Positions 1 through 17,352 of a stretch of 22,821 nt of DNA are shown piece by piece; position 1 is the first letter of the stretch; every line of letters begins with the position of its first letter. The position numbers were made by a program, and so were the translations under genes. Source of the stretch: a virus. The DNA is taken from the IMG/VR virus record IMGVR_UViG_3300042946_001086, positions 1-22,821 of that record; one strand, 5' to 3'. The notes below the pieces were generated by a model. That model was not told the DNA's origin. It saw only the letters and a program-made list of their open reading frames with translations, and searched no databases.

Positions 1-3000
1 GATTTATTGCCAGGACAATTAACTGGAAACAATTATAATAAATTAGCTAATTTGGTTTTGCAGCTAACAGGAAAAACTGCAAGCCAACGACAAATACCTT
101 TGCTAGAAAAAGAGACTGACCCCAGCATGGCCGGAATGGCTGGGGCTTATTACCGAGGAGATAATAAAATACGTATACACGCAAAAGATTATGAAGCATT
201 AATTTCATCAGATGTTAGCAAGTTGTCTGACGATCTTATTGATACAATATTGCATGAGATGTTTCACGCTATTCAATATGATTTTGGGAAAATTAAAACA
301 GTACAGGAAGCATCTATGTTTTCTCCATCTCCTACTCTTAAAGAGATGGCTAAATGGAGTAGTGTTTCAGAGTTTAGTGCTGATAGACGCAGAGGTAAAT
401 ATTCTCCTGAAGTTGTTAGCGCAACCTTTGATTTGGAATTAGGTGCTTATAGTTTTGGAAGTAGATATACACAACAAGCTAAAGAAGCATTAAAAACAAA
501 TACTTCATTAAGTCAGTCTGTATCAGGATCTCCAAACCAAGTTGCCAAAGAAGTGCAACAACTACAACAAGCAGCGTTAAAGGTTGGAAAGTCTCATCAT
601 GATACTTTAGAAAAACTTCGGAAAATGAATCTATCTGATGAAGCGTATAACAAATATCATTCAATGGCTAATATTGTCCGCGACAAAGGTATTAGTTTTG
701 CTGAATCTTTAGACAGCGTTGAAAGCTTATCTCCTGAAGAAGTCCAACAAGCTATAGAAAAATTTAATAAAATTGTTGATTACATTAACAATATCCCTGA
801 AACAGTTAACCAAAAACCATCTGAGATAAGTCGTGAAAGACAAAAATCAAAGTCAACACCTGTGGCTAAAGCAGTACAGTCTAGCTCATTAGAACAGAGT
901 AAACTACCAAAAGAATTACAACAAACAATACTATCGTTTAAGCAGACTTATCAAGATATTTCTGGTCAAATCAAAACGATGAATTTGCCAAACGATATTT
1001 ACTCTCAAGCCCATAAAGCTATTGAAAAAGGTCATAATAAAGGTACTGAACTAATTGAAGTATTAAACAATATTCAAGACTTATCTCCTGAACAAGCTAA
1101 TTCAGCTATGGAGAAATTTAATCAATATAGTGCTTACCTTTCTAATATTCCTACAACTATCAATAAGCTTATCAGCAAACCCGATGAAGTAGTTGCTCAA
1201 GAGCAGAAAGCACCTGTTACACCAAGGGCTAGTCAATCAATCCAGCAAAGTGAATTTTTCAGGAATATCAGACAGGTAGTAAGTGGAAGTGCTAACTTAA
1301 AGGAATTAGCTACTAATATCATATCCGCAATAGTACAAACTATTTTAAATCCAGTTCGCAAATATATATCATCTTTTATAGCAAAGGTAACTACAGGTTT
1401 CACGGATGTAACAGATCAACCAATTGTAGCTTTTAAACAGAATTTGCCTCAACAAGCCGGTCAAGCATTAACTAATACTTATAGAACTATTTCACCTATT
1501 CTACCCACGCAGTTTCAGGCAGTTGATACTGAGTCTCGCAAGTGGGAAACTGAGTTCAACAAAAAATTAAAACCCAACCAATCCCAAAACAAATTTAATC
1601 AATATATTCCTAGCATTCCTGTGAAGTCTACTGAAGTATTAACCAATGTTCACAGGGCTGTTTCGCCTATTTTACCTATACAATTCCAAGCAAATGATTT
1701 TGATTTCCATAAGCAGTTAAACAGCGGAAATAGTAATTTACTTAATAACCCTGCCGTAAATCAAGTAGTCAATACTGCCAAAAAACTCAAGTCTACAACT
1801 AGCTTCAAGGAAATAGGTTCTAATTTAATTTCTTCGTTAGGACAAGGATTTTTGTCTGTTAGCAGTGGTGTACTGGGGATAGTGACTGCGTTTGCTAAAG
1901 GCATACTAAGCGCGGTTAAAAAAGTATTTAGAATAGCGTCACCATCAGGTGAAGGCATTGATACCGGGGAAAACTTAGCTGGCAGCATGGGAATTGGTAT
2001 TAACAACCAAGCCCAGACCGCTGTTAATGCTGCTAGAAACATGGCAGAAAATGTTAGGAATGCGATCGCTGATCCTTGGGATACCCCTCTCCCAATGAAC
2101 CTTGTGTTTAAGCAAGATTTAGATTTAGAAAACCAGGCACAAGCCCATATTAAAGCCACCAAGGAACACTTCCAAAAACTCAAGATTCAAGATTTATTGT
2201 CTGACATTGGTGTTAACTTTGGTGCTGATTTTGGGCATGAAGGTATTACCAGTAATGTTCTTTCTAGCTCTGATTTACTTGGCTATTTAAGCAACAAATC
2301 AGCAAGTCTCACTCCACTTCAAAACACCGTTTATAATAGACTTGTTGATGATTTTCAGGAACAAAGAACTCTAGCTGCCCATCATTTTGCGATCGCTCGC
2401 GCTGATGGAAACCCAGTAGATCCCGCTGTTCTCAGAGGTCTTGACGCGGGCTTTAATTCTATATTGTTAAGAATAGTTGAATTTTCAAAAAGATTGGGGA
2501 TAAAAGGGCAGTCAATTGACAAATTGTTAGCATCAAATCAGTCAGTTGTAAACACAGCAGCTTACCAGCCACCTAGATTTGTAGCACCTAAGACCCCAAT
2601 ACCAGAAAGACAGCCAGGACAAACAGACCAAGAATATAGTCAAGCTGTAAAACGCGCTTTAGCAGAAGATAACAATAATTATCGCAAAGCTAAAAACGCA
2701 TACAATCGAATGATACTAGGCGTTAGCAATACCCCAACACCACGGAGAACCCAACTACCAGCACTTCCTCCTGTTCCCGTTTATGCAAGAGAGATTATTG
2801 AACCTGTAACCAATGTACCACTAGTTCAGCGGACACAAACTACTATTCCCCCAATCCCAGATCCTTGGAACGATTCTGTACAGCAACTAGTTAACACTGT
2901 CAGACAAACAACAAGAACTCAGTTTCTATTACCTCCTGCTAGAGAACGCTTAAACATTAACTCGTTTGTACAAACTCAGTCTAATCTACAGAGATTAGCT

Positions 3001-6000
3001 AAAGAAATTGTTGCTCAACAACCGATGACGCAACTATCAAGACCCCAGCCACCAACAATACAGCGTACTATTCCCCCAATCCCAGATCCTTGGAACGATT
3101 CTGTACAGCAATTAGTTAACACTGTCAGACAAACAACAAGAACTCAGTTTTTGTTACCACCTGCTAGAGAACGCTTAAACATTAACTCATTTGTACAAAC
3201 TCAGTCTAATCTACAAAGATTAGCTAAAGAAATTGTTGCTCAACAACCGATGACGCAACTATCAAGACCCCAGCCACCAACAATACAGCGTACTAGCCCA
3301 ATAATTTTACCAAGGAACTTTGTACCCAATCCCAACGCACAGATACTTTCCAGTAAAAACTTTGTACTCAATCCAAATGCACAGATAATCTCATCTCAAA
3401 AGTTTACGCCTAACCCAAATGCACAAATAGTCTCATCTCAAAAGTTTACGCCTAAGCCTGATGCACAATTGATTTTACCAGTCGTCCAAGGGTTGTCGCC
3501 AGCCATAAGATCAACTCATTCACTAGCACAAAATAGTATAAGTGCTTTAATTGCTGCTAACAAACAAGTACAAGCTACTATTGCCGGGAATAAGGTAACG
3601 GTCTCTTCTCGTTTTGCACCCATACCAGATCCTTGGACTACACCACCTTCGCAAACAGTCAAACAAATGGCTGGGCAATATGGTCCAATACCTGACTCTT
3701 GGCTAACATCACCGCGTTCTACCCAAGCGTTTAAACAAGTCGGTAAATTACTTATTGGACAAATACCTGCTACACTTTCATCTACCGTACCATCCCTTAT
3801 CCCCCAACCTGCTGGTACTACTGCGCCAAAATATGTTTTCCCGCCTCAAACTCTTGGAAGTACCGTACCAGCATACACATTTCCTGTTAACCCAACTCCA
3901 AAACCACCTATAGCACCTGTACCACCCATACCACCAACATTATTAGATCAATACTTAAATTTAGGTACTGATTTGGTGACAAATATTTTTAATGCCGTTA
4001 GTGCAAGCATCCGCCAAAGCACTTTATCTGGTTATGCTTCATTGGGTCAAGTCATGCGGAATGCCGTTAACGCAGCTTTGTTTTCTTTAGCGGATACGCT
4101 TAAACAACCACTGCATCAAGCTTTATTGTCTCAAACCAGGAGTATATTGCCTTGGTTCTTAAAATTTATACCTCGCAGTTTTCAACTACTTCCTAAATTA
4201 AGTTTTGCCATACCTTTTGTTGGTGGTATGGTATTAAGGTTTGGTAATTCAATTGTTAAGAATTTATTAGAAAACAATATTTTGAAAGAAGGTGGTTTTT
4301 TAACAAACTTATTAAGTTCTATTACTAGGGTAGATTTATCAGCTTTGTCGGGAACTAAAACTGCTGGTGTTACAGGGTTTTTACATAATATCGTAAGTCC
4401 ATTACCTCTGCTAGTCGGTTCACGGTTTAATCCATTGCTGTCACTAGGAACATTAAGCGCAAGCCCGCTTTATGATGCTTTTAGTGGTATCTTGGGGCTA
4501 GATAAGTCCGTGAAACCCAACCCCAAAAAACAAGCACCTACTATTGAACAAGTATTACAAAACCAGACTAAAATCAACAGAGAAAAAGCTCTCTTGCGTG
4601 ATGTCAAGGAAGTTGGCACTAGCACTAATATCAGTACAGGAGTAGGACAAAATCTTACTGCTTATCCAGATGCCCAAAGAACCAAAGCAGAAGAATCATT
4701 AAAACGTGCTGTTGAGTCAGGTAAAGCAATACCAAAATTAGATGAACTTACCAGGAAAGCATTAAGAGAGCGTGGTGTACGTAGTTTTGTTCGTAATCAA
4801 ATGGATTCTGCTGAGTTGCTTGCTGAACGGGAAAATATACTTAAGAATCCTCTTAACGCTACCAGTAAAGAACGTGACTTTCTCTTGTACATAGCAGACA
4901 TAAAAAAACTTAATGCTACTACTGAAAAAGAACGAGATAAAAGGATTATCTCTATCCTTAAAGAACGGGGGAAAAGTGATCAGGATATTGAAAATATACG
5001 AAATTCAGGTGCATACGCACTACTCGATGTTGGTGATGATTTAATAAAGAACCTGCCTACAATTACAAAACAGCCTACTGCTACACAAACAGTTCAGCCA
5101 CGCACTTCTAGTGCCAGTATTGCTAGTAAAGAACTAGTAGAAAACTTGGGAAATACTTTACTAAACAGTGTTTTAAATAATCTTGATGTTCCTGTCATTC
5201 CTAAGTCTGTAATTCAAAAATTGATTGGCAAGAAAATGGGAGAGAGATCAGCAACAATAGCAGATGCTATTAATGCGTTTGGAACTGAAAAAAGTAAAGC
5301 TGAACAATTATTAACACGGAATCTTGAATCAGGTAACACAAAAAGATTAGATGGACTTACAAAGCAAATACTGAGAGAGCGTGGTGTCACTAAATCTGTT
5401 CGTGATGCTATGACACCGGAACAATTAGCCGCAGCCCGTGAAAAAATAACTAAATCCCCAATTGATTTAACCGCTAGAGAGCGTAAACTTCTGAAGTTTA
5501 TGGGTGATTTTGAATCTCATGCAGCAACGATGGGAAATGATGTAGCCACAAGAAAACGGGATGCTATGGTAATGTCTGTTTTGCAAGAGCGCGGCATGAG
5601 TCGGGATCAAAGGAAGCAGGTTCAACAATCACAGGGTGGACAAGGTTTAAGCAGTTTTGCTGACAACTTGAGAGACAATCCCCGTACAGGCGGATTTATG
5701 GGTAGACTCACAGAAGCTTATGCTAGTAACGACCAGGATGCTATGAAAGGACTGGTTAAAGAAGGGTTAAGAAAAACTGGGATGTCTGCTAAACAGATTG
5801 ATGCTATTGACCCCAAGCTTTTAGACACAGCCACCGCAGGATTGATGACCACGTTGAGCGGACTACAGGCTAAGTTCAGGGAAAAAGGCTTTGACATGGG
5901 TAAAGCCTTAGCCAAGGGCTTAAAAGACTCAATGGTGAATCTAGCTAACGCCAAAGATGATTTAGAATACAACGCCAAAAAAGTCATGGGACAAGCTAAT

Positions 6001-9000
6001 TTTGGTGATTCTGTAGGTTTAATATTCCGTCGTATGTTCAGGGGTACAGCAGCGACTCAAGGTCAATTTGCAGAAATGTACAACCAGATGGGTGCAGGGG
6101 TGAAAAAAGCCATGTTTGGAGGTTCTAAAGAAGGGGATGAGATGTTCCCTAATGTCCTTCAATTCTTCGGTTCAATCGCTACAACCCTTGCACCAATTAC
6201 CACTATGATAGGTGCAATTACGCCATTATTATTACCTTTAGCCCCAATTATTACAGGTATAGGCATGGCTGTAAACATGGTTGCACCCCATGTAGCTAAA
6301 CTCATAGATGGTATTCAAAGGGTAGAAGTATTACAAAGAAGATTTAAGTTTTTAGGCGGGTCAAAAGAAGGAGGTATAGCTGAGTTTAAATATGCAAAAG
6401 ATATTGCTAACAAATTAAATGTACCTTCAGAAGTAGCTGCTAACTCCTATTCTCAACTGGCGATCGCAGCTAAAGACAGCAAGATGGAAGGTCAAGGGGT
6501 TAAAGATCTATTTGAAGGTATTACGTCATCTTTAAGCGCGTTAGGTATCAACGGTCAGGATGCTAGTTTGGTATTTATGGCATATACGCAGATATTAGCT
6601 AAAGGTAAGCTGTCTATGGAAGAGCTTAGGCAGCAGTTAGGTGAGAAGTTCCCACCTGCTATGGCTACGTTCGCTAGAGCCATGGGTGTGACCGTTCCTG
6701 AAATGAATGAACTGGTAGCTTCTGGTGGCATTTTATCCCAAGATATTTTACCTAAAGTAGCTAAAGTATTAAAAGAAGATTATGGTAGTGCTGCTTCCGA
6801 TCAAGCTGGCGGACTGGTAGTTGCGCTCAACAAACTAGGTAATGTGGGCTTTGAGATTACAACAATATTTACTGATAAACTTGGTGGCACACTAGCATTT
6901 TTTGTTAACACTTTTGCTAATATTTTAGGCGTACTTAGCGGTGCATTAAAAGAATTAATACCATTAGTCAAATCCTTTATGATTGGCTTTGCAGCCACAA
7001 TTTCCATTGGACTAACAATCATTCTTTCTAAATTTGGACCTTTTGTAGTTGCAATGAAGAGTTTACAAAACTTCTTATTGGCTACTTTTTCCGCTATTAC
7101 TACCAATATGATGCCAATGGTTATTGGTATTGTCTCAGACGTTGCTGATGGTTGGCTAGGTGCAGAAAAGAACTTGATCGACAATATGTTTCAAGGTATA
7201 AATAACATGATTGTCGTTGTGTTCAGCACTATAGACACTGCCATGCGCTCCATGAGCGACCATCAAGTTTCTTTTGGTACAGTCTTTGGTGGCTTAATCC
7301 AAGGGGCAGAACAAGCTGGTAGTATCATAGACTGGCTTAAAGGGGTGTTTGCAGGTTTCTTTAAAATTCTTCCTTCTGGGATTGTAGAAATACTAGCTAT
7401 AGTATTTATGCTAGAGCAGGGAACAGGTTTGCTGGTTATGGCTTTGTGGCCTGCTATCAAAGGACTGTGGGGTGGCATTACTGGAATATTTGGTGCTACA
7501 GCAAAAGCGTTTTATGGGGTAATGGGTTCACTTAAAGCTGTTGTTGAATTAATGATGACATCTTCAGCGGTTGCTTCAAACGCAACTAATAATGTTGCAA
7601 AAAGTGGCGTAAGAAGCATGGCAATAGTTCAAGGTGCATTAGGATTTTTGAGTAAAGCACTGTTACATTTTGGACTAGCTTACGCTGTTCTGATGTTTTC
7701 TAAAGGTGATTTTAGCGACCCATTGCGAGAATCAATTAATAAATCTACCGCAGACATTAATAAACATTTAAATCAAGTCAGATTAAACATCAACCAAACC
7801 ACCGAAGCGTTTAATAAAGCCACTAAATCTGTAGAGAAACTTGGTAATACGATCACCCATGCTTTACCGGCTAAAGGAGTGCAATTAGACGTTAGAAGTC
7901 TTTGGGGTGGTGGTGATTGGAAATGGGACGACGCAGTACGGGAAACTAACGCGAAATACAGACAAGGTGGTTCAGGTCCAAGCGCAATGGATGTTATAGG
8001 AACTGGTGCTTTATATGCCGGAGGTGCTGGGTATGCCGCTGCTGCCGGATCTAAAGCAATAAAAGCAATTGTAGACCTTGCAGTAAAAACAGCCCCAATC
8101 TTAGCCTCAAATGCAGCATTAGGGTCGGCGCCTGGACCACGCATGGCTGTTCCTCTTTTCGGCAGACTTGCTACAGCAATAGCTCCTGTGGTTGCCATAA
8201 TGGGTCCTTGGGGTTTAGCGATCGCAGGTCTTATAGCTACTATTGTTGCAGTTGGTGTGGCATTAGATGCGTTTGCCCCTAAGATTACTGAAGCGCAATT
8301 AAACACAGAAGAAAAAGGTGGGTTGCCAGAAGAAATTAAACAGATTATTAACGCTAAAAAAGCTGGTGAAAGGCTAGATGCTTCATCTATGCAAGTTATT
8401 AAGCTTTACAAAGATCAGCAACTCAGCAACGAAAGATTAAAAGAGTTTATGGCTTCAATTGGTTTAGACGGAAAAAACCCTTATAGCTTTGTTGCCCGAC
8501 CAGTTGTACCCATGACACAGGAACAGAAGGAAGAATTTGAAGATACTGACCCTGTAAAAAACATTACTAAAAGTATAGAAGACAAAAAAGCGTCGCTTCA
8601 GGAACTAGAAAAAAATGCAGGAACTACAGAAACAGAAAAGTCAAAAGCAAGATCCAAACAAGGGTATAAAACAGTCCAAGAAGAGCTTACTAAATTGGAG
8701 AAAGATAAGCTGTTAATGCAATTATCTTTTATGGCTAATTATGACAATAAGTCAAGAATGGATGCAATTGATGAGCAGATTAAAGCGAAAGAAAAAGAGA
8801 TAGCAAATCATCGTTCTACACACCAATATATTGATACTAGAGTAGGTAGACGTGACCCTGAGAATCGAGCAAAAATAGCAGTAAGACAAGGATTAACAAA
8901 AGAGTTAGAGAAACTACAAAAAGAAAAAGCCGCTTTACAAATAAATATTAACGCTTCAGCGCAACGCAGAGTTAATTATGATGCAATCAAGAAAATTGAT

Positions 9001-12000
9001 GTTGATATGCAAAAAACCGCTGCTGAATTTGTTGAAGCTAGTAATCAATTAGCAGTCAGCCCTAATGACAAGCTACGTAATAAAGCAGGGTTAGCAAAAG
9101 AACGTATCGCGCAGCTACAAAAACAAAGACAGAAATTAGTTGATGAGTTTGGCGATCCTACACCAGCGATTAAGCAAATGCTGGAAGTAACCAAGAGGGA
9201 AATAGAAAAAACTTTATCTGATTCAAGCATCACTTCTCAGCAAAGGAAGGTGACAGTACAGCAATTAAGGGAAACACAGGAGACACTTGAAAAGTCATTA
9301 GCAGAAGCGGAAAAGTTCAGCATTGCACCAATAGCTGACACAATGTACACTCAAGCGGTCGCAGCACTTAAAGACAATGAAGTTAAGTCCAATGTAGACA
9401 TCAGTAAAAATAAGATTGTCTCTAACCAGGCACAAGCTAGACTTTACGGAACTACCTTGACATCTCAGCAAATTGCGCCCGGCTTATCTGACAGACAGAT
9501 TGCAGATTTGACTTTTCAGCAAAAAGTATTAGAGCGTTCTTTGAAAATCAAGGAAGATAACTTATTGAAACTCCAAAACGCTGCTGCACAATCTCCAACC
9601 AACTTATCTCAAATACAAGAGGAAATTACCAAGCTTCAGCAGGAAATAGCGAAGGATAGGGAACAGGTAAGCCAAAATACTTTAGAGATTGTTAAAGCGC
9701 AACGAGAAGCTAGACAAGCGTTAATTGACCAGACTAAACAGGTAGCGGAATACTACCGGACATCTTTAAGGGAGTCCCAAGCTGCTGCTATTGAGTTTGA
9801 TAAAGCTACCAATAACATTAAGTCTCAACAGTTCGCTACTAAGCTGAAACAGGCTTTGGTTGGGGCTGGTAATAATATCTTTACCAACTTTATTGACAGT
9901 GTGATTGGGTTGTTCCAACAACTTACTGAAATTGAGAACTTACGTTTAGACAGGCAAAAACAGAAGTTAGATTATGAGAACAATATACAGGACATCCTGA
10001 TTAAAGTCACGGAAATGCAGCGTAGTCTACCGGGTAAGATTGTACCTTTTAGTCTTGATCAGATTCGTAACTTTGACAAGGAACTAGGAACTGTTAACAG
10101 CAGTGTGTCAGGTATCAACAAAGAAATTAACAGTGTTACAAAAAATTTAGGTGTAAGTGCAGTCAATTCTACTATACAACTTAATAAGCAATTAAAAGAG
10201 GTTCTTAGCACCGTAGAAAAGATAAATAAAGTAACTAGTAATCAGCAGCTACAACCACCAAACAACAGTGGTGTTTCTGGTGTTTCTCCAGTACCGATAT
10301 CTCAGAGAACAAAAATACCAGTAACACCTGAAGATGAGCAAATTTGGCGTGAGTTTGTTGCACCACAATCTGGTATTAAAAGCGGTACATCTAGTCTACC
10401 CACATCCACTCCGGTAGCTAATGCGCCTAAAGAGGTGTTGGTGGCTGGGCTTATGTCAGATATGGGCTATAGCTACTATTCTCAAGTCACTAAATTAAAA
10501 CCAAAGCTACCGGACAATGCTTTTTTGTCACCCATTGTGGGTAAGAACTTATCTAACATCATTAATACTAAATACCGACCTGAAGATTCCTTTGGGAAGA
10601 CCGGAGGGATTCGGTTTAATCAGAATATTGGGGTTGGTAAAAATACCAATATTCAATCTTCTGTAACTGGCATGGCTAGGCTTGTTGGTAATACTTTAGA
10701 GATTATCAAACAAACCAAGGGTGGCACTATTAAGCTGATTTATGAAGGGTTGAATATTCCCAGTGTTAAAAAGAATTTGAAACTCAATGACGGTGGTTCA
10801 GTTAATATCAATGCTGGGCAGTTAATTGGTACTTTAGCAGGGAATAACTTTAAGTTCCGCACAGAAGTCAATTCCTCTAATATGGACCCGTTAAAGGTTA
10901 TTAGGGATATTGAATATAAAAGATTAAATGCTTTTCAGAAAGCGGCTAGGTTTTTTGATCAGCCAAATAACACCGTAACAAATTTAGGTTTATTGCCAGA
11001 GCCAAAGCCGGTAGCAATATCTTCTACACCGTCTACACCACCTGTTAACCGGGCTATTAATTGGTTTAAAACAGAAGTCAAAAAATTTGTGAGAAAAAAT
11101 GCTCCTGAAGAGGTTAAGCGAGTCATCCGTAATACAAAGAATTTTGTTGATAATATTCCACCAATAATCCCTACGTATAATCAGAATACTAACAGCTACA
11201 ATCCTGGTATTTTGGATATTTTAATAGGCAATAATTCAAAACCAAAACCAAATCCAAAACCAAAACCAAATCCAAAACCAAATCCAAACAATAGTACTGG
11301 TAGTAGTAGAAATAACCAAAGCACTGGTAACAAGCCGACAACAACTAACCAAGGTAAAAGCGGTAGTGGAAATAACCAAGGTACTGGTAACAAGCCGACA
11401 ACAACTAACCAAGGTAAAAGCGGTAGTGGAAATAACCAAAGCACTGGTAACAAGCCGACACCAACTAACCAAGGTAATATATCAAATTTGTCTGGTGCAT
11501 TTCCACAGCCTAGCACTAGTGGGCTAACTACAGTAAGTAATACTGGAAACCAAATACCGCCAAATTTATCTGGTGCATTTCCACAGCCTAGCACTAGTGG
11601 GCTAACTACAGTAAGTAATACTGGAAACCAAAGTAATAAAATCAACAACCAGCAGACTAAACAAAATTTGACTGGACAACTACCACAAATACCACAGACA
11701 AGGCAACCCGTGGTAATTCCACCAGGCACTGATCCTTACACTAGATCACAATTGCAGAATCAGCCAAACCCTGATAAGTTACAAGGAGGTGTTGGAGAAG
11801 CTGGTAAGCTCGGTGTGGAAGCTGCTAAAAAAAGAGACGCTGCGGCTAGGTTGCAAAGGCAACAAGAAATAAGCGCAAAGCTGGTAGAGTTCCAAAGAAA
11901 TTTATCCAATCTATTAAGAGATACCAATAAAGGTATCAGAGATGAATCACTACAGGCTGCACAAGATATTAGTAATGCTTCTGAGTATATCCAAGGGCTG

Positions 12001-14106
12001 TTAAATCCCAATGCTTCTGATAAGGAAAAATTTGCTACTGACTTCCAAAAACTAAAGAATGAATACCAAGCAAGGATTAATGAACAACAGAATATTATTG
12101 AGTCTACAAGAGCGCCTCTTGCTGAATTAGCAAGGGTTGATGAGCTAATTGCTGCTGCTCAGAGAGAAGGTATAGATGCGTCAGGGCTAAAAAGATTAAG
12201 AGACGAAGTGTACAGAGTCGTTAAAGCAAGACAACAAACAGCGATCGCACTCCGCAATATGTACACCAAAAACAAGCAAGCGGTTTTTGATAAGTATGTA
12301 AGCAGATTTAAAGAGGAGCAATCAGATAAAGATGCTGATAGAAAAGCTGCTCTCTTGGGTGTAAATATCAGTCAATTAAAACTACGATTGGAAGAACTGA
12401 GAGGAATTCAAGCAATTGATCCTTTGAACCCTGAATTACTCAAGATACCTGACCTTGAAGCAAATATAGCTCAATTAGAATTAACTCAAACAACCCTCCA
12501 AAAAATAGCTGCACTTAGACGCGAGTGGCGACAATCAGGTGGTAAAAACATGGGTAAAGATGTTTATGACAAAAGAATGCAAGATATTAAGAATACTGTC
12601 ACAAAACAGACAGCAATCATTGAAAGAAAGCGTCGGACTGACAATATATTAGCTTATGTTAATCGTGAACTTGGATTGATAGATAAAGGGGCTGCTGAGA
12701 GAGAACCAATTACCAAGGGTTTACAGCTTGATAATAGTCTGTTTGCTGCTAGGAATAAGAACGGTTTAGTTAATATTATTAACTTTGAAAATGAAGCATT
12801 AATTAAACAAAAAGACTTGATGGACTCTTACAGAAAAACTAGCTTAGAGACTCAGCGCGACTTTAAATTATCTTCTGATGATAGAATCACAAAACGCCTA
12901 AGAAATGCTATGAATCTCCAAAAAGAATTAAATGTTTTGAAAATAGAAACTGAGTACCAAAAAGCGACTGGCGAGATTAAAAATAGACAGGTGACTGTAG
13001 ATGTGGAAGTGAGATTATCTGATTCTGCTAAGGCTATTTTTGAAAGCAAGAGTACCATTAAAAAGAATTTGGGATTGGAGTTGGCAGGGGAAAGATTAGA
13101 CCGTCAGAACGCAATCACGACTCAAGAGAATGAGTATAAGCGCAAACAGAATGAAACTAGTCAATTTATTCTGGACAATAACCTGACTGAGTCACAGGCT
13201 TATGTACTTAGAAAGAATAATGAAGTAGAGAATGATTTAAAGCTACGTACCATTAAATCCCAGTTCTCAGAGTTTGCACAACTAATTAAGTCCTTTGTAT
13301 CCGGATTTAAGAGTTCTTTTAAAGAGTTTCTACTCAGCACAGAAGACACAGGCACGGCATTAGTAAACCTGCTTAAAGGTATAGGTAAGTCTGTACTGGA
13401 TACTTTGGCAGAAATAGCATCTAAGCGTGTAACAGACTTGCTTTTTGGTTGGATGGGCGGGGCTGGGCTTAACCCGGCAACGGAATTATCTTTTGCTGCT
13501 CAACAACTTACTCAAGCAGCGATCGCACTACAGACAGCGGCGGGTGCTTCAGCCTTAGACTTGGGTATCTTTGATGGATTTGCTGGTTTTGGTGATATTG
13601 CTTCTTTTATCCCTACGGGTATGGAGTTCTTAGATCCTTCTACTTTTGGGGCTGCTGACTTTGGTTCAGCTATTTTATCAGGATTTGCTAAGGGTGGGAT
13701 GATTGATAAAGATACTCTTGGGAAGATTCAGAATTTTGCCAACGGGGGAATTGTGGGAACGATGAACAAGGAACGGGCTATGACAGGGAGGACACCGCAC
13801 TTGGTGGTCGCTTCTGAAGGTGAGCGCATCCTTAATCACAAAGAAACTGCTATTTGGAATAGGTTGCAATCAGGTATTTCTGGATTTGCTGATGGTGGTA
13901 TTGTCGGTGGTGGCTCTGGGGATATTGCTTCTAAGATTGGTAGCACTACAACGGTAAATGTGCCTGTAAGTGTGTCAGTCAATGAAGGTTCTGATGTAGA
14001 TGGGGCTAGATTGTCACAGACTGTACAGGCTCTTGTCAGTGATGGAATTAGGCGGGAGATGCGTCCCGGTGGCTCTATTCGCAGGGGTAATCCTTACGGT
14101 CGGTAA
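1..14106 (+). CDS. Giant phage tail tape measure protein (5' end outside window)
   Basis: Sets siphovirus tail length by scaffolding tail-tube assembly and usually leaves through the tail tip at infection. The frame is open from base 1 to TAA at 14104-14106 (4,701 residues), so the true start is probably upstream; the first in-window initiators are TTG at 7 and ATG at 127. Order of parts: zincin-like HEMFH (253-267); helical repeat pair (541-1188); hydrophobic stretch ending in a TMP-type ASPSGEGIDTGEN motif (1936 on); proline-rich spacers with tandem repeats (2560-3950); repeated charged helices (4681-5622); canonical TMP block with GKLSMEELRQQLGEKFPPA (6601-6660); hydrophobic segments near 6973-7050, 7381-7460, 7624-7700 and 8167-8274; coiled coils (about 8530-9760 and 11800-12650); degenerate M23-like domain (10591-10911); low-complexity repeats (11238-11631); GGIVG motifs and a typical TMP C-terminus (13273-14106). 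I saw no cysteine anywhere. TMP identity is very secure; the role of the first 2,000 residues is inferred. Confidence 0.95.
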   Translation, partial: DLLPGQLTGNNYNKLANLVLQLTGKTASQRQIPLLEKETDPSMAGMAGAYYRGDNKIRIHAKDYEALISSDVSKLSDDLIDTILHEMFHAIQYDFGKIKTVQEASMFSPSPTLKEMAKWSSVSEFSADRRRGKYSPEVVSATFDLELGAYSFGSRYTQQAKEALKTNTSLSQSVSGSPNQVAKEVQQLQQAALKVGKSHHDTLEKLRKMNLSDEAYNKYHSMANIVRDKGISFAESLDSVESLSPEEVQQAIEKFNKIVDYINNIPETVNQKPSEISRERQKSKSTPVAKAVQSSSLEQSKLPKELQQTILSFKQTYQDISGQIKTMNLPNDIYSQAHKAIEKGHNKGTELIEVLNNIQDLSPEQANSAMEKFNQYSAYLSNIPTTINKLISKPDEVVAQEQKAPVTPRASQSIQQSEFFRNIRQVVSGSANLKELATNIISAIVQTILNPVRKYISSFIAKVTTGFTDVTDQPIVAFKQNLPQQAGQALTNTYRTISPILPTQFQAVDTESRKWETEFNKKLKPNQSQNKFNQYIPSIPVKSTEVLTNVHRAVSPILPIQFQANDFDFHKQLNSGNSNLLNNPAVNQVVNTAKKLKSTTSFKEIGSNLISSLGQGFLSVSSGVLGIVTAFAKGILSAVKKVFRIASPSGEGIDTGENLAGSMGIGINNQAQTAVNAARNMAENVRNAIADPWDTPLPMNLVFKQDLDLENQAQAHIKATKEHFQKLKIQDLLSDIGVNFGADFGHEGITSNVLSSSDLLGYLSNKSASLTPLQNTVYNRLVDDFQEQRTLAAHHFAIARADGNPVDPAVLRGLDAGFNSILLRIVEFSKRLGIKGQSIDKLLASNQSVVNTAAYQPPRFVAPKTPIPERQPGQTDQEYSQAVKRALAEDNNNYRKAKNAYNRMILGVSNTPTPRRTQLPALPPVPVYAREIIEPVTNVPLVQRTQTTIPPIPDPWNDSVQQLVNTVRQTTRTQFLLPPARERLNINSFVQTQSNLQRLAKEIVAQQPMTQLSRPQPPTIQRTIPPIPDPWNDSVQQLVNTVRQTTRTQFLLPPARERLNINSFVQTQSNLQRLAKEIVAQQPMTQLSRPQPPTIQRTSPIILPRNFVPNPNAQILSSKNFVLNPNAQIISSQKFTPNPNAQIVSSQKFTPKPDAQLILPVVQGLSPAIRSTHSLAQNSISALIAANKQVQATIAGNKVTVSSRFAPIPDPWTTPPSQTVKQMAGQYGPIPDSWLTSPRSTQAFKQVGKLLIGQIPATLSSTVPSLIPQPAGTTAPKYVFPPQTLGSTVPAYTFPVNPTPKPPIAPVPPIPPTLLDQYLNLGTDLVTNIFNAVSASIRQSTLSGYASLGQVMRNAVNAALFSLADTLKQPLHQALLSQTRSILPWFLKFIPRSFQLLPKLSFAIPFVGGMVLRFGNSIVKNLLENNILKEGGFLTNLLSSITRVDLSALSGTKTAGVTGFLHNIVSPLPLLVGSRFNPLLSLGTLSASPLYDAFSGILGLDKSVKPNPKKQAPTIEQVLQNQTKINREKALLRDVKEVGTSTNISTGVGQNLTAYPDAQRTKAEESLKRAVESGKAIPKLDELTRKALRERGVRSFVRNQMDSAELLAERENILKNPLNATSKERDFLLYIADIKKLNATTEKERDKRIISILKERGKSDQDIENIRNSGAYALLDVGDDLIKNLPTITKQPTATQTVQPRTSSASIASKELVENLGNTLLNSVLNNLDVPVIPKSVIQKLIGKKMGERSATIADAINAFGTEKSKAEQLLTRNLESGNTKRLDGLTKQILRERGVTKSVRDAMTPEQLAAAREKITKSPIDLTARERKLLKFMGDFESHAATMGNDVATRKRDAMVMSVLQERGMSRDQRKQVQQSQGGQGLSSFADNLRDNPRTGGFMGRLTEAYASNDQDAMKGLVKEGLRKTGMSAKQIDAIDPKLLDTATAGLMTTLSGLQAKFREKGFDMGKALAKGLKDSMVNLANAKDDLEYNAKKVMGQANFGDSVGLIFRRMFRGTAATQGQFAEMYNQMGAGVKKAMFGGSKEGDEMFPNVLQFFGSIATTLAPITTMIGAITPLLLPLAPIITGIGMAVNMVAPHVAKLIDGIQRVEVLQRRFKFLGGSKEGGIAEFKYAKDIANKLNVPSEVAANSYSQLAIAAKDSKMEGQGVKDLFEGITSSLSALGINGQDASLVFMAYTQILAKGKLSMEELRQQLGEKFPPAMATFARAMGVTVPEMNELVASGGILSQDILPKVAKVLKEDYGSAASDQAGGLVVALNKLGNVGFEITTIFTDKLGGTLAFFVNTFANILGVLSGALKELIPLVKSFMIGFAATISIGLTIILSKFGPFVVAMKSLQNFLLATFSAITTNMMPMVIGIVSDVADGWLGAEKNLIDNMFQGINNMIVVVFSTIDTAMRSMSDHQVSFGTVFGGLIQGAEQAGSIIDWLKGVFAGFFKILPSGIVEILAIVFMLEQGTGLLVMALWPAIKGLWGGITGIFGATAKAFYGVMGSLKAVVELMMTSSAVASNATNNVAKSGVRSMAIVQGALGFLSKALLHFGLAYAVLMFSKGDFSDPLRESINKSTADINKHLNQVRLNINQTTEAFNKATKSVEKLGNTITHALPAKGVQLDVRSLWGGGDWKWDDAVRETNAKYRQGGSGPSAMDVIGTGALYAGGAGYAAAAGSKAIKAIVDLAVKTAPILASNAALGSAPGPRMAVPLFGRLATAIAPVVAIMGPWGLAIAGLIATIVAVGVALDAFAPKITEAQLNTEEKGGLPEEIKQIINAKKAGERLDASSMQVIKLYKDQQLSNERLKEFMASIGLDGKNPYSFVARPVVPMTQEQKEEFEDTDPVKNITKSIEDKKASLQELEKNAGTTETEKSKARSKQGYKTVQEELTKLEKDKLLMQLSFMANYDNKSRMDAIDEQIKAKEKEIANHRSTHQYIDTRVGRRDPENRAKIAVRQGLTKELEKLQKEKAALQININASAQRRVNYDAIKKIDVDMQKTAAEFVEASNQLAVSPNDKLRNKAGLAKERIAQLQKQRQKLVDEFGDPTPAIKQMLEVTKREIEKTLSDSSITSQQRKVTVQQLRETQETLEKSLAEAEKFSIAPIADTMYTQAVAALKDNEVKSNVDISKNKIVSNQAQARLYGTTLTSQQIAPGLSDRQIADLTFQQKVLERSLKIKEDNLLKLQNAAAQSPTNLSQIQEEITKLQQEIAKDREQVSQNTLEIVKAQREARQALIDQTKQVAEYYRTSLRESQAAAIEFDKATNNIKSQQFATKLKQALVGAGNNIFTNFIDSVIGLFQQLTEIENLRLDRQKQKLDYENNIQDILIKVTEMQRSLPGKIVPFSLDQIRNFDKELGTVNSSVSGINKEINSVTKNLGVSAVNSTIQLNKQLKEVLSTVEKINKVTSNQQLQPPNNSGVSGVSPVPISQRTKIPVTPEDEQIWREFVAPQSGIKSGTSSLPTSTPVANAPKEVLVAGLMSDMGYSYYSQVTKLKPKLPDNAFLSPIVGKNLSNIINTKYRPEDSFGKTGGIRFNQNIGVGKNTNIQSSVTGMARLVGNTLEIIKQTKGGTIKLIYEGLNIPSVKKNLKLNDGGSVNINAGQLIGTLAGNNFKFRTEVNSSNMDPLKVIRDIEYKRLNAFQKAARFFDQPNNTVTNLGLLPEPKPVAISSTPSTPPVNRAINWFKTEVKKFVRKNAPEEVKRVIRNTKNFVDNIPPIIPTYNQNTNSYNPGILDILIGNNSKPKPNPKPKPNPKPNPNNSTGSSRNNQSTGNKPTTTNQGKSGSGNNQGTGNKPTTTNQGKSGSGNNQSTGNKPTPTNQGNISNLSGAFPQPSTSGLTTVSNTGNQIPPNLSGAFPQPSTSGLTTVSNTGNQSNKINNQQTKQNLTGQLPQIPQTRQPVVIPPGTDPYTRSQLQNQPNPDKLQGGVGEAGKLGVEAAKKRDAAARLQRQQEISAKLVEFQRNLSNLLRDTNKGIRDESLQAAQDISNASEYIQGLLNPNASDKEKFATDFQKLKNEYQARINEQQNIIESTRAPLAELARVDELIAAAQREGIDASGLKRLRDEVYRVVKARQQTAIALRNMYTKNKQAVFDKYVSRFKEEQSDKDADRKAALLGVNISQLKLRLEELRGIQAIDPLNPELLKIPDLEANIAQLELTQTTLQKIAALRREWRQSGGKNMGKDVYDKRMQDIKNTVTKQTAIIERKRRTDNILAYVNRELGLIDKGAAEREPITKGLQLDNSLFAARNKNGLVNIINFENEALIKQKDLMDSYRKTSLETQRDFKLSSDDRITKRLRNAMNLQKELNVLKIETEYQKATGEIKNRQVTVDVEVRLSDSAKAIFESKSTIKKNLGLELAGERLDRQNAITTQENEYKRKQNETSQFILDNNLTESQAYVLRKNNEVENDLKLRTIKSQFSEFAQLIKSFVSGFKSSFKEFLLSTEDTGTALVNLLKGIGKSVLDTLAEIASKRVTDLLFGWMGGAGLNPATELSFAAQQLTQAAIALQTAAGASALDLGIFDGFAGFGDIASFIPTGMEFLDPSTFGAADFGSAILSGFAKGGMIDKDTLGKIQNFANGGIVGTMNKERAMTGRTPHLVVASEGERILNHKETAIWNRLQSGISGFADGGIVGGGSGDIASKIGSTTTVNVPVSVSVNEGSDVDGARLSQTVQALVSDGIRREMRPGGSIRRGNPYGR
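157..465 (+). other. Zincin-like metallopeptidase domain inside the TMP
   Basis: The protein reads DTILHEMFHAIQYDFG with HExxH at 253-267 (two His ligands plus catalytic Glu), followed 35 residues later by SEFSADRR with Glu at 370-372, a plausible third zinc ligand of a gluzincin. A further ELGAYSFGSR segment lies at about 436-465. HExxH preceded by hydrophobic residues and followed by a helix with a downstream E is the standard zincin pattern. Seen: the motif and spacing. Inferred: peptidase activity, either self-processing of the giant TMP or cleavage of a host surface or periplasmic protein during ejection. I could not assign a specific peptidase family. Confidence 0.6.
541..1188 (+). repeat. 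Pair of about 95-residue helical repeats in the TMP
   Basis: Two diverged protein repeats lie at about 541-822 and 904-1188, separated by a short charged linker. Both begin with a KE(V/L)QQ motif, share a K-x-MNL segment, and end in (S/D)LSPEQ-type, A-x-EKFN and YL/I-x-NIP motifs followed by a KP(S/D)E tail. The pattern suggests duplicated helical bundles. DNA identity is low, so the duplication is old. Confidence 0.75.
1465..1701 (+). repeat. Short duplicated segment, LTN-x(4)-SPILP-x-QFQA
   Basis: The segment ALTNTYRTISPILPTQFQA (from 1465) recurs as VLTNVHRAVSPILPIQFQA (from 1636), with starts 171 bases apart. It lies between the zincin-proximal repeats and the hydrophobic ASPS-containing part of the TMP. 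Function unknown; it looks like a duplicated short structural motif. Confidence 0.65.
2842..3291 (+). repeat. 225-bp tandem duplication with only synonymous differences
   Basis: Two direct units, 2842-3066 and 3067-3291, each encode the same 75 residues, starting TIPPIPDPWNDS and ending PQPPTIQR. By eye they differ at six bases in five codons (CTA/TTA, CTA/TTG, CCT/CCA, TCG/TCA, CAG/CAA), all synonymous. They lie in the proline-rich spacer. The pattern indicates a duplication since kept identical at protein level by purifying selection. Confidence 0.9.
3316..3480 (+). repeat. Four 14-residue tandem repeats, (N/K)F(V/T)xNPNAQI
   Basis: Units at 3316-3357, 3358-3399, 3400-3441 and 3442-3480 encode NFVPNPNAQILSSK, NFVLNPNAQIISSQ, KFTPNPNAQIVSSQ and KFTPKPDAQLILP. 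The period is 42 bases. They directly follow the 225-bp duplication and precede further PIPDPW and PIPDSW motifs, forming one extended, probably unstructured or polyproline-like spacer. Confidence 0.85.
4681..5622 (+). repeat. Charged helical repeats of about 110 residues in the TMP
   Basis: Two repeats, about 4681-5001 and 5290-5622, share the order KAE-x(2)-L, LRERGV, VR-x(2)-M, A-x-RE-x-I-x(2)-(N/S)P, T-x(2)-ER-x(2)-L, then (I/V)L(K/Q)ERG-x-S-x-DQ. A weaker third copy of the first half may start near 5743 (LRKTGMSAKQIDAIDPKLL). They are rich in Arg, Lys and Glu and probably form helical hairpins just before the canonical TMP block. Confidence 0.65.
6136..6990 (+). other. Canonical tape-measure N-terminal block (TMP_3 / TIGR02675 type)
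   Basis: This stretch holds the pattern that usually identifies phage tape measure proteins: an AKDIANKLNVP-type helix, GITSSLSALG, GKLSMEELRQQLGEKFPPA, FARAMGVTVPEMNELVASGG, and LPKVAKVLKEDYG followed by LNKLGN. In typical TMPs this block sits near the N-terminus; here it begins about 2,040 residues into the visible protein. Assignment is from memory of the family consensus and is strong. Confidence 0.88.
10591..10911 (+). other. Degenerate M23 (lysostaphin/LytM-like) domain in the TMP
   Basis: The order of strands matches M23 peptidases: FGKTGGIRF in place of H-x-G-x-D, SSVTGMARLVGN in place of A-x-G-x-V-x(2)-GN, a GGTIKLIYEGL strand pair, INAGQLIGTLAG in place of V-x-x-GQ-x-IG-x-x-G, then FKFRTEV with DPLKVI in place of HLHFEV with DPL. 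The zinc-binding His and Asp of both motifs appear replaced (Thr, Arg, Lys, Arg), so the fold looks kept and catalysis lost. M23 domains are known in several phage TMPs. The fold assignment is inference from pattern. Confidence 0.5.
11238..11289 (+). repeat. Lys-Pro/Asn-Pro dipeptide repeat
   Basis: Repeated AAACCA and AATCCA hexamers encode a KPKPNPKPKPNPKPNPN tract, a rigid polyproline-like spacer beginning the low-complexity stretch between the M23-like domain and the C-terminal coiled coil of the TMP. Confidence 0.9.
11311..11475 (+). repeat. 60-bp tandem repeats (NNQxTGNKPTTTNQGKSGSG)
   Basis: Three units start at 11311, 11371 and 11431; the last is cut short after AACCAAGGTAAT. Units are nearly identical in DNA (AAGC versus GGTA near position 9, and ACA versus CCA later), so the expansion is recent. 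They encode a polar Asn/Thr/Gly/Lys linker. Confidence 0.92.
11485..11631 (+). repeat. 78-bp tandem repeat (NLSGAFPQPSTSGLTTVSNT)
   Basis: Two units begin at 11485 and 11563. The shared 69 bases differ at one visible synonymous position (TTG/TTA Leu); unit 1 ends GNQIPP and unit 2 runs into GNQSNK. This continues the low-complexity linker of the TMP. Confidence 0.9.
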
Positions 14107-14113
14107 TGGGAAT

Positions 14114-14295
14114 GTACAGGCAAGATGCCTGTACCACGATTTATAGTGTTTATGGGATGGGTGGTTAAAATGTACGGGTGAGAGTTAAGTGTATAAGCAA
14201 GATGCCTGTACCACAATTTATAGTGTTTATGGGATGGGTGGTTAAAATGTACGGGTGAGAGTTAAGTGTACAGGCAAGATGCCTGTACCACAATT
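14114..14295. repeat. 77-bp tandem repeat carrying a 9-bp-stem hairpin, between convergent genes
   Basis: Units start at 14114, 14191 and 14268 (the third is only its first 28 bases). Each opens with GTACAGGCA-AGA-TGCCTGTAC, a perfect 9-bp stem with a 3-base loop in copies 1 and 3. Copy 2 reads GTATAAGCA on its left arm, which weakens the stem. Units 1 and 2 differ at three of 77 bases. The block occupies nearly all the gap between the TMP stop (14106) and the minus-strand small gene (14301). The hairpin resembles abundant intergenic repeats of Nostoc-type genomes. It could act as a bidirectional transcription stop, but no T tract follows it. Confidence 0.9.
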
Positions 14296-14300
14296 GGTGG

Positions 14301-14456: not shown

Positions 14457-14637
14457 TCTTTTTAGGCTCTTTTGATACGGCTAAACCAGCACTACCGGAC
14501 GCTAACGCTAAGGCAATATTAAATGCACCATTGGCTTTTGTGTCTGATAGATCAGGGACTATCATTGTAACTATGGTGATGATTGCACTAAGCAAAGCAA
14601 ATACTACGGGAACAAAGTCGTTTAATTTGTCTTTCAT
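14449..14637 (-). CDS. Small two-helix membrane protein (62 aa), holin-like in form
   Basis: Sixty-two residues: short charged N-terminus (MKDKLNDF), a strong membrane segment at about residues 8-28 (FVPVVFALLSAIITIVTMIVP), a polar turn (DLSDTKANG), a second hydrophobic segment at about 37-54 and a charged tail KEPKKNE. Size, two segments and a basic C-terminus fit small phage holins or other inner-membrane phage proteins, but no lysin is adjacent, so holin is only a possibility. The start codon overlaps the stop of the portal-MuF gene (ATGA, 14637-14634), and its own end overlaps the next small gene, so the three minus-strand genes should be co-translated. Confidence 0.75.
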   Translation of the reverse strand: MKDKLNDFVPVVFALLSAIITIVTMIVPDLSDTKANGAFNIALALASGSAGLAVSKEPKKNE

Positions 14638-16529
14638 AAACTGGGCAATATTGGTGATTTTGAATAATACTTAACACATTTGCAGTTAGCTCGACACTGA
14701 CAGTTCTCTCCTGGATTTGGTAATGTACCTATCTTTGCCCATCCCATACTGCTGTAACGGATACAGTCACTACAGCTATGACTAGCAGCTATAACCCGAC
14801 GTTCCCACAAGTATCCGTTTCTGCTATGCCCTTCTAGTTTACCATCTTCATAAAAATGCCTGGTTTTGTTGTAGTACATTTGCGCTCTAGCAGCTATCTG
14901 GGCTTCTGATAATTCACCACGGATAATTTCATTGGAAAATCCTCGCAAATATTGATACTGTAAGTTGAGTTTACCGCTTAATTCAGCATGGTCGCGCCAG
15001 TCCATTTGTTTTAGTCCGCCTATACCAAGTGAGTATTGGTACAAGGAAACATCTCTGATTAGTTCTGCGGTTTGTCGTTCCCATGTACTGACGTTGATTT
15101 TCCCTGATAGTAAGTTGTCGGTAACTTTATTACCCATCTTCAATGTGTCTGCTATGGCTTTCTCTGTGATTCTGACTACATCTTTCTCTCTGACAAATTG
15201 ACCTTGTTTATTCCCGTTGGCATATTGATATCTTTGGCTAGATGAGTTCCAATAAAAGCTAGTTGACTCTTGGGCGGCTTTAATTGCTACCCTTTGGTAC
15301 TTTTTTTCACTAGCTACCTCCTTAATCTCTTCTAATGGTGCTATTCCTGCTAGTTCCCTCATTCTATTGATTACAGCTAAGTCGTCAATACTAAATGCGC
15401 CTGTGCTTATACAGTTATTGACAATATTTAAGAGTGATATGACATCTTCGTTGTCCTGTGAATTAATAGGAAAAATCCCGTAATTTTCTTGTTCCCCAAG
15501 ATTAAATTCAATCATGGGACGGATCACTTGTTCAATCAAGACATCCCCCACTAATTCCATCTGTGACTTGATGACTAAATCCAAGATACCCCTATGCCCA
15601 GCGTTGAGGTTACTGTCACCACTGCTAATTGCACCTGTACCTGTGACGGTTCTAGGTACTAACCAGGACAACATGATCATGGACTCTAAGTAGCCTAGGA
15701 TGTTCATGAAAAAGCTACCATCGGTTTCGTGAGCGATCGCAAAGATATCATCAGCAATATCAATGACTGCATAAGAATTATTTTTCATGTCGTCTAAATT
15801 CTTAGACATAACATAAGCTTGGTTAAACAGCCTAGGCTCTCCCGTGGCAGGGTCTAAGAAAGCATACCCGGTTTCAGGATTAACCATAGTGACAGAGTTA
15901 TTGGCTGTGTCAGTTTTGGCTACCAGTAGTTTAGTGGCTTGTCTTTCTGATGCGATCGCCATACAAGCGTTGACTATTTTCATTAATTCCCAGTATGGGT
16001 ATGCTCTTCTACATATTGCTACTCCATAAGGGTCGCCTCCCAGTGCTAAGTATGGTTGATTGATTAAATGAATACCGTTCTCATAAGGGATATAAATATC
16101 AGCATTTCTCATGTAGTGAACTGTTTTGATACTGCCGGAATATCCTTCAAACCAATAATAACGCGGGTCTATGGTACGGATTTTGTCTAAATAAGCTACC
16201 CGTTTTTTGATGATGTAACTAACTTCTGAAAATGAACGTCCAAAGGGAATAAATGTTAAGAGTTCGGCAATTACGTTAGACCAACTTCCTTCCATCTGGT
16301 TAATAGATGACCTAACAAAATGTTCAATGTTTTCATCTGGATGTTGATATTTCCCTAGTAAAGATACACCTAATAATGTTCTTAAATCATTGGCTGCGGA
16401 GGCTACAGGGGAATCTTTGAGCATCTCCACATATTTATCTGTAATGTTTCTATCTGACTGTTGAATCATCCCAATCCAAGTGGAAACTAAGGCTTGAACT
16501 TTGGGAGATAATAAATTTGTATTTAACAT
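14634..16529 (-). CDS. Phage portal protein fused to MuF-like head morphogenesis domain (631 aa)
   Basis: Residues 1 to about 400 resemble the DUF935/Mu gp29 portal family: WIGMIQQSDRNI near the start, WSNVIAELLTFIPFGRSFSEVSY in the typical place of the portal wing, a WLVPRTVTGTG segment, then GHRGILDLVIKSQMELVGDVL and IRPMIEFNLG. Portals form the dodecameric DNA channel at the head-tail vertex. From about residue 430 a second part resembles the Mu F / head morphogenesis domain, ending in SCSDCIRYSSMGW, LPNPGENCQCRANCKC with Cys 586, 589, 610, 612, 616 and 618, probably a metal-binding knuckle. ATG at 16527-16529 is the first start after the divergent promoter region; no clear Shine-Dalgarno sequence. 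The gene is reversed relative to the tail genes on both sides. The portal call is good; the exact family is from memory. Confidence 0.82.
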   Translation of the reverse strand: MLNTNLLSPKVQALVSTWIGMIQQSDRNITDKYVEMLKDSPVASAANDLRTLLGVSLLGKYQHPDENIEHFVRSSINQMEGSWSNVIAELLTFIPFGRSFSEVSYIIKKRVAYLDKIRTIDPRYYWFEGYSGSIKTVHYMRNADIYIPYENGIHLINQPYLALGGDPYGVAICRRAYPYWELMKIVNACMAIASERQATKLLVAKTDTANNSVTMVNPETGYAFLDPATGEPRLFNQAYVMSKNLDDMKNNSYAVIDIADDIFAIAHETDGSFFMNILGYLESMIMLSWLVPRTVTGTGAISSGDSNLNAGHRGILDLVIKSQMELVGDVLIEQVIRPMIEFNLGEQENYGIFPINSQDNEDVISLLNIVNNCISTGAFSIDDLAVINRMRELAGIAPLEEIKEVASEKKYQRVAIKAAQESTSFYWNSSSQRYQYANGNKQGQFVREKDVVRITEKAIADTLKMGNKVTDNLLSGKINVSTWERQTAELIRDVSLYQYSLGIGGLKQMDWRDHAELSGKLNLQYQYLRGFSNEIIRGELSEAQIAARAQMYYNKTRHFYEDGKLEGHSRNGYLWERRVIAASHSCSDCIRYSSMGWAKIGTLPNPGENCQCRANCKCVKYYSKSPILPSL

Positions 16530-16587: not shown

Positions 16588-17352
16588 ATGACAATGATTT
16601 CTGATTTAATTAAGGAACAAATCAAATCTTTAATTATTAGTGACTCTATTGAGTCTTGCGGGTTGATTATTCATAACCAGGTTGTTTCTTTACCCAATTC
16701 TCACAGTGACCCTGTTGATAACTTTGCTATTGCTTCTAAAGATTTAGCTAGATTTAACTATTCTCAAATCAAAGCTTTTTGGCATACCCACTGTAATGAC
16801 ACTCAACCTGGTTACTTTACTTACACCGATATTGAGATGAGTCGTCAAACTCAAAAACCAATTATCCTTTATCACACGGTGTTTGATATGTGGGACTACT
16901 ATGAACCAAATAATCCCAACCCGTTTCCACTTAATTTTATAAATTACACGCCTAAACAAATAGAATTTTATCAAGGCATTCCTTTTTACTGGGGACGCTC
17001 TGATTGTTTCTCTATTGGTAGATGTTATTTTTTAGGTATGCTGGGTGTAGATGTAGGCGATTTTCAACGTTCTCATCTTGATAATTTTCCGCCAGACAAC
17101 TATCAATGCCCTTTTGACTTTGACCACCAACTACGATTAATGCCTATAGGGACTAAAGCAGAAGTTCATGATGTATTTGCGATCGCATTGAGGGGAGGGT
17201 TACAGGTCAATCATGCAGCTATTTTAGTGGATGCAGAAAAGAATTTGATTCTTCACTCTATGTCACAAAAATCTCTGAGTAAAATTGAACCTTATAATAG
17301 ATACTTAAGAGAAAGAACCATTAGCCATTACAGATTAAAGTGCTTATGCTGA
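16588..17352 (+). CDS. Tail tip assembly protein gpK-like: JAB/MPN + NlpC/P60 (254 aa)
   Basis: Two peptidase-like domains in lambda gpK order. The N-terminal JAB/MPN part has Glu22 (ESCGL), His66 and His68 (FWHTHC), Thr78 and Asp81 (TYTD), which match the JAMM metal site except that the usual Ser is Thr. The C-terminal NlpC/P60 part has Cys140 in YWGRSDCFSIGRCY and His209 in GGLQVNHAAIL, with LILHSMSQKS after it, matching gpK homologues. The protein probably acts in tail tip assembly and may cleave peptidoglycan during entry. First gene of the rightward tip operon; ATG at 16588 (a second ATG lies two codons later) with no clear Shine-Dalgarno sequence. Its end overlaps the gpI-like gene. Confidence 0.9.
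   Translation: MTMISDLIKEQIKSLIISDSIESCGLIIHNQVVSLPNSHSDPVDNFAIASKDLARFNYSQIKAFWHTHCNDTQPGYFTYTDIEMSRQTQKPIILYHTVFDMWDYYEPNNPNPFPLNFINYTPKQIEFYQGIPFYWGRSDCFSIGRCYFLGMLGVDVGDFQRSHLDNFPPDNYQCPFDFDHQLRLMPIGTKAEVHDVFAIALRGGLQVNHAAILVDAEKNLILHSMSQKSLSKIEPYNRYLRERTISHYRLKCLC

Follow-up and report, generated by a model that had tools for sequence, protein, structure and literature searches.

The longest tail that we found in print is that of phage P74-26, at nearly 1 µm (PMC10034513, partial text), and the tail of P23-45 is given as exceeding 800 nm (PMC9022992, partial text). The tape measure protein (TMP) of P23-45, gp96 (EU100883), has 5,002 residues, which include an RNA polymerase at the N-terminus as well as an M23 peptidase; P23-45 is a Thermus phage and belongs to the group with the longest tails known. 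The Gordonia phages Hotorobo, Monty and Woes have some of the longest tape measure genes and tails of ~540 nm (PMC4982279), and Mic1, a freshwater cyanosiphovirus, has a tail of ~400 nm (PMC7156551, partial text). Particles with extremely long tails have been seen elsewhere too, as siphoviruses of this kind are cited from Baltic sediment, with no sequence attached in the available part of the source (PMC11500664). The rule relating TMP to tail length is printed as 0.145-0.15 nm per residue; in TP901-1, where the rise is 0.145 nm per residue, the tail changed by 30% when 29% of the TMP residues were deleted from, or inserted into, the N-terminal region (PMC5099701, partial text). Within the open PMC literature covered, we found neither a report of a TMP above 5,002 residues nor a tail measurement for CrV.

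The stretch of DNA analysed here (the window) is a virus record of 22,821 bases, IMGVR_UViG_3300042946_001086. Its frame 1 is free of stop codons from base 1 onwards until a stop codon whose last base is 14106, and it encodes 4,701 residues with the left edge open; given the regional base composition, the chance of such an open run is ~10^-144. Window bases 1-17800 recur without a single difference in contig IMGVR_UViG_3300037541_000700 (G006), which carries the entire gene. This gene has 6,228 codons and begins with an ATG preceded by a GGAG ribosome-binding site. The true start sits 1,527 codons upstream of the window, which encodes residues 1528-6228. Another contig, 3300043803_002147 (G001), differs from window bases 1-8683 at a single base. 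Because G006 is identical and G001 nearly identical to the window, we dismissed an error in a single assembly, and as judged from these contigs misassembly of the gene is unlikely. The features of the window are listed in the table.

The identity of the protein was clear. The TMP_3 domain (PF20155) matched window residues 2106-2279 with 90.2 bits (cut-off 41), TIGR02675 matched window residues 2178-2249 with 49.3 bits (cut-off 21.35), and the strongest PHROG TMP family matched the frame with E 6.6e-35. On G006 the N-terminus reads MNLGELIVELSADSSELEKT, a canonical TMP start in the style of lambda H, MAEPVGDLVVDLSLDAARFDE. Substitutions between the relative G009 and the window in the TMP_3 region fall mainly on the third codon position (0.088/0.050/0.328). 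The C-terminal blocks from residue 6101 show 71-98% identity in G009, G011, G004 and G007 and 36% in the isolates CrV-01T and Cr-LKS4. The gene is confirmed as a complete and uninterrupted TMP gene. The initial annotation had already read the frame as an exceptionally long TMP and advised looking upstream for its start; both the assignment and the exceptional length hold, and the start is now located, while its lower bound of 4,701 residues is real but underestimates the complete protein. Other searches returned less. A sequence search against solved structures returned weak hits only, to chemotaxis receptors and a haemoglobin, the Rfam search gave no match, and nothing in the phage collection matched the N-terminal 1,833 window residues at E 1e-5. 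The TMP_3 region matched 706 plasmid records; among the ten listed, all are ordinary TMPs.

Features of the 22,821-base window; TMP residue numbers refer to the complete protein of 6,228 residues
Feature	Position	Strand	Evidence
TMP, C-terminal 4,701 residues (1528-6228)	1..14106	+	open frame; 100% match to G006 TMP
Zincin-like cassette in TMP (residues 1558-1690)	91..489; HEMFH 253-267	+	SprT-like PF10263 20.1 bits, below cut-off 25.6
SPS...GLxxGI-type module, copy 3 (copies 1 and 2 upstream of window)	1804..2055	+	iterative HMM, E 2e-26
Proline-rich stretches in TMP	2650-3489 and 3550-4059	+	proline-rich, hardly helical
Tandem duplication in TMP	2841..3295	+	2.0 copies of a 225-base unit, 97% alike; lies in proline-rich stretch
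TMP_3 region	6130..7500	+	family alignment; Pfam match 6316-6837, TIGR02675 match 6532-6747; inside hydrophobic block
Conserved TMP C-terminus	13717..14103	+	family block identities from residue 6101
Portal protein (Mu type) with extra C-terminal domain	14634..16529	-	PF06074 85.2 bits; phrog_24776 at 422-623
K-like minor tail protein	16588..17352	+	phrog_30 E 6.5e-23
I-like tail assembly protein	17340..17921	+	phrog_32 E 5.1e-24
J-like central tail fibre / tip protein	17943..19769	+	phrog_31 E 5.1e-113; PF24801, PF13550
M-like minor tail protein	20427..20768	+	PF05939 42.8 bits, cut-off 39

The two nearest isolates by TMP, CrV-01T (MH636380) and Cr-LKS4 (OQ625504), share with this protein the N-terminal start, a similar C-terminus, SPS modules before TMP_3 and a TMP_3 region of 43% and 34.5% identity, respectively. 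However, their TMPs have only 4,416 and 2,987 residues against 6,228 here, and both lack the HExxH cassette. Like gp96 of P23-45, the protein is of giant size, would be the ruler for a non-contractile tail of great length and carries an enzyme-like part within it, but neither the RNA polymerase nor the M23 peptidase of gp96 was found in it. The TMPs of Hotorobo, Monty and Woes, compared by length alone, have ~3,320 residues, about half of this one, and that of Mic1 (MN013189), with 2,572 residues, was not matched by the model of the TMP_3 region with the filters at their usual settings.

Searches of viral contigs for relatives recovered 8, 6 and 66 loci, which overlap, and a frame-length search on 49 of the 66 together with CrV-01T and Cr-LKS4 matched in all 51 cases. 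We compared 22 complete TMPs. As the selection leaned to long frames on long contigs, and 17 of the 66 loci as well as some records possibly with complete genes fall outside the set, proportions among the 22 do not hold for the family as a whole. Ten of them exceed the 5,002 residues of P23-45: G047 (6,256), G048 (6,235), G006 (6,228), G049 (6,125), G009 (6,123), G011 (5,846), G013 and G014 (5,772 each), G040 (5,555) and G007 (5,050); one partial TMP, G003, has at least 5,100 residues. Over the family, lengths range from 2,987 to 6,256 residues with the ends alike. These giants are not independent, G013 and G014 having the same N-terminal part and G047 and G048 being 93% identical. Since only 9-41% of residues are shared, at 27-34% identity, among the groups G006/G009/G011/G013/G007, G047/G048, G049 and G040, TMPs of more than 5,002 residues are found in about four divergent lineages. 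In three of these (G047 and G048, G006 and G009, G049), the longest TMPs all lie between 6,123 and 6,256 residues. The similar maxima may be due to chance or to a common upper physical limit near 1 µm.

Length varies mostly in one part of the protein. Among the 22 complete TMPs, the part before TMP_3 (N-part) has 957-3,858 residues and the part after it (C-part) 1,612-2,430. The variation statistics were calculated for 19 TMPs, leaving out the near-duplicates G014, G020 and G048 and uncorrected for relatedness. The coefficient of variation is 0.39 before TMP_3 and 0.085 after it, the variance of the two parts equals 82% and 3% of the total length variance, and their lengths correlate at 0.51. 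In the present TMP, 3,570 residues precede the TMP_3 region. Comparison with G006 in hundred-residue blocks showed mosaic exchange: from residue 4501, G004 is at least 96% identical in 16 of 18 blocks but lacks most of residues 1520-2838, whereas identity to G009 is 93-100% in residues 1-3100 and no more than 14-57% in 4501-6000. The family is anchored at the N-terminal start, at TMP_3 and at the C-terminus, the end of which is different in G036.

An 84-residue module, often of the form SPS...GLxxGI and located by an iterative HMM, is present in two to five copies in 21 of the 22 complete TMPs, only before TMP_3, and in no copy in G036. It is also found near the C-terminal ends of the matching PHROG TMP families. 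We rejected growth by simple duplication of this module, as its copy number is only a loose guide to the length of the N-part (Spearman 0.50 with p 0.03 over 19 TMPs, not allowing for relatedness). When seven TMPs were compared with themselves by BLAST, the output listed no repeats; however, this comparison also missed the known tandem duplication of 225-base period and is not a valid test for repeats.

To predict the tail length, we fitted five phages with known TMP and tail: Pam4 (703 residues, 110 nm, weak TMP_3 match), lambda (853 residues, 150 nm), CL131 (2,131 residues, 361 nm, where the neighbours gp047 and gp048 may also be tail parts), Mic1 (2,572 residues, 400 nm) and Hotorobo (9,984 bp or 3,327 residues, 540 nm). 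All are without TMP_3, except possibly Pam4. TP901-1 and P23-45 were kept outside the fit and served as checks, and Pam2 was dropped because no TMP is annotated in the stretch examined. The slope of the fit was 0.159 nm per residue, with r2 0.995; taken singly, the calibrators gave 0.156-0.176. The fit returned 803 nm for P23-45 and 999 nm for the phage studied here (992 nm when CL131 was left out). Full-length use of the TMP at 0.150-0.176 nm per residue corresponds to 0.93-1.1 µm. The 0.15 nm rule used in the initial annotation thus agrees with the printed values and roughly with the five calibrators, and the tail near or above 700 nm which it proposed is set too low, as the rule has to be applied to 6,228 residues rather than 4,701.

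We consider it most likely, with a probability of about 0.6, that this is the 6,228-residue TMP of a phage, probably a cyanosiphovirus, whose tail is long and non-contractile, and that the whole protein sets a tail predicted at ~1.0 µm. The tail of ~1 µm is a grounded prediction. The tube would be built along the entire stretched TMP, with the C-terminus at the tip and the N-terminus at the head as in TP901-1 and lambda, and the main route by which tail length evolves would be that blocks lying after the fixed N-terminus and before TMP_3 are gained, lost or exchanged. During infection, the C-terminal part would be the first to exit and the hydrophobic TMP_3 region would insert into the inner membrane. 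In TMPs that have it, the zincin-like cassette would arrive late. Use of the full ruler is supported by P23-45, whose length fits the rule with the N-terminal polymerase included. Several observations weigh against it. The length variation found before TMP_3, with the remainder constant, would fit an N-part lying outside the ruler as well, ~920 residues of the protein are proline-rich with little helix, and the present N-part scores lower than the C-part on a crude helix scale (0.64 vs 0.72).

The caution of the initial annotation that N-terminal residues may lie outside the tube is therefore real, and it has become sharper, as the 3,570 residues before TMP_3 include the zincin-like cassette and account for almost the whole variation in length. 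If the measured part were TMP_3 plus the constant C-part alone (~2,660 residues) and the N-part were cleaved, placed in the head or folded as cargo, the tail would have ~430 nm, close to the 400 nm of Mic1. We regard this as rather unlikely. The length of the C-part varies by only 8.5% while that of the N-part varies fourfold, but a TMP-like N-terminus is retained at the far end of the N-part, and in TP901-1 changes at the N-terminus scale with the tail (PMC5099701, partial text). The zincin-like cassette and the long proline-rich stretches do sit in the N-part; in G047 and G049, however, its helix propensity is not below that of the C-part (0.85 vs 0.71 and 0.84 vs 0.72). P23-45 bears on both sides, being a precedent for a TMP whose N-terminal part is a folded enzyme (PMC10770324, partial text) and yet obeying the rule when this polymerase is counted.

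It is a less probable case that the whole TMP lies in the tube with its folded or proline-rich blocks not fully stretched, which would give a tail clearly longer than 600 nm yet falling well short of 1 µm, ~0.8 µm. Leaving out the 920 proline-rich residues gives 796 nm at 0.15 nm per residue, but Hotorobo, Mic1 and P23-45 follow the rule by residue count without any such correction. A chimeric assembly or gene decay is hardly credible as the source of the giant frame: the frame does contain tandem repeats and its identity to relatives jumps along its length, but the window, G006 and G001 agree (the metagenome numbers differ in two of the names), the domain order is the same in G009 and G011, and equally long open frames exist in unrelated lineages.

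Beyond the prediction of a ~1 µm tail set by the whole protein, we propose only tentatively that there is a group of freshwater cyanophages with tails of ~1 µm or more, the longest known, whose length is tuned by block swaps in the stretch that links TMP_3 to the fixed N-terminus. Among these blocks would be enzymes, such as a zincin-like protease, that travel in the tail and are injected, making the ruler an effector carrier, and TMPs of more than 5,000 residues would have arisen in about four divergent lineages, with a possible upper limit as the longest of three of them end at 6,125-6,256 residues. If this is true, the record of tail length would shift from a hyperthermophile phage to uncultured phages, probably of bloom-forming cyanobacteria. 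With 2,987 to 6,256 residues, the family is a natural series of rulers bearing on which part of a TMP measures and how far tails can grow, and as CrV-01T and Cr-LKS4 were isolated on one host species, the question can be tested now. The protease-like cassette extends the question raised by the polymerase of P23-45 of how enzymes borne by a TMP traverse the tail.

The nature of this cassette was more difficult to determine. We call it only zincin-like because the SprT-like match stays under the cut-off. The HExxH motif is present in three of the 22 complete TMPs (G006, G009 and G011), or in six of 31 rows when partial TMPs and the window are counted. Between G006 and G011, blocks 1501 to 1900 are 93-99% identical and the flanking blocks 45-62% and 47%, as would be expected of a recently exchanged block. 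The region gave one match in the phage collection at E 0.1 and six loci in viral contigs, one of which is a 42-residue piece at a contig edge. Its structural model, built from four near-identical sequences, was uninformative (mean pLDDT 39.1), as was the all-helical model of residues 820-1260 from 19 sequences at its mean pLDDT of 34.8.

The M23 peptidase of P23-45 is of the same type as that found after TMP_3 in the relatives G024 and G032, where it was confirmed by Pfam; a three-sequence HMM placed it after TMP_3 also in G043, G022, G007, G019 and G020. No M23 domain was found in the TMP of the window. By blastp, gp96 matched within the family only G032 and G024, with E 1e-10 and 1e-9 and in the M23 peptidase, and weakly G043 and CrV (E 0.03 and 0.07); the G006 TMP had no match to it at E 0.1. 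A fused RNA polymerase of the P23-45 type was rejected, as the DFDGD-like motif is present in none of 31 family proteins; of seven TMPs examined for the looser D-x-D-x-D, four (G006, G007, G004 and CrV) have a single copy, which lies in the C-terminal half.

The surrounding genes fit a siphovirus TMP, with K-, I-, J- and M-like genes downstream and an antisense portal gene intervening. This portal gene stands between the TMP and the K-like gene. The C-terminal 200 residues of its product (phrog_24776) match non-portal genes in CrV-01T, Cr-LKS4 and S-CBS4, so the portal looks fused to a head protein. Two genes upstream of the TMP on G006 there is a gene with a weak match to a major tail protein (phrog_820, E 0.0036). 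A major-tail-like protein was found in all eight related records, in several copies in G048, CrV-01T and Cr-LKS4. The sheath family PF04984 was found in none of these eight records, several of which are fragments, and in three of 14 control genomes. Three to four major-tail-like matches are adjacent in CrV-01T (25493-28097), Cr-LKS4 (26152-28756) and G048 (47791-50304), and these phages may have tubes built of several paralogues.

As for the host, both CrV-01T and Cr-LKS4 infect Cylindrospermopsis raciborskii, and six of ten records matching the portal are cyanophages, the other four being Bacillus, Geobacillus and Staphylococcus phages. Based on the hosts of these TMP and portal relatives only, the host is probably a cyanobacterium. 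The J-like protein matched mainly enterobacterial phages. Scanning genome contigs with J gave nothing, and the scan with the TMP_3 alignment gave a single Bacteroides match of 29%, linking no host genome.

Several smaller features were noticed around the TMP. Upstream of it on the G006 contig (L010, 4210-5366, plus strand), a second frame runs past the stop of a 287-residue frame. This two-frame layout resembles the frameshifted G/GT tail chaperones, and no canonical slippery site was recognised in it. Directly past the TMP stop, 14113-14295 contains 2.4 copies of a 77-base repeat with the inverted repeat TGTACAGGCAAGATGCCTGTAC and is without a clear gene. On the minus strand, a frame of 62 residues with two hydrophobic stretches (14449-14637) overlaps the end of the portal gene; it is holin-like by look only, no family matching it over the cut-off. 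The last frame (22357-22821, plus strand), cut by the right edge of the window, consists of 42-residue repeats (126-base period, 3.6 copies) such as occur in beta-propellers, and may belong to a receptor-binding protein.
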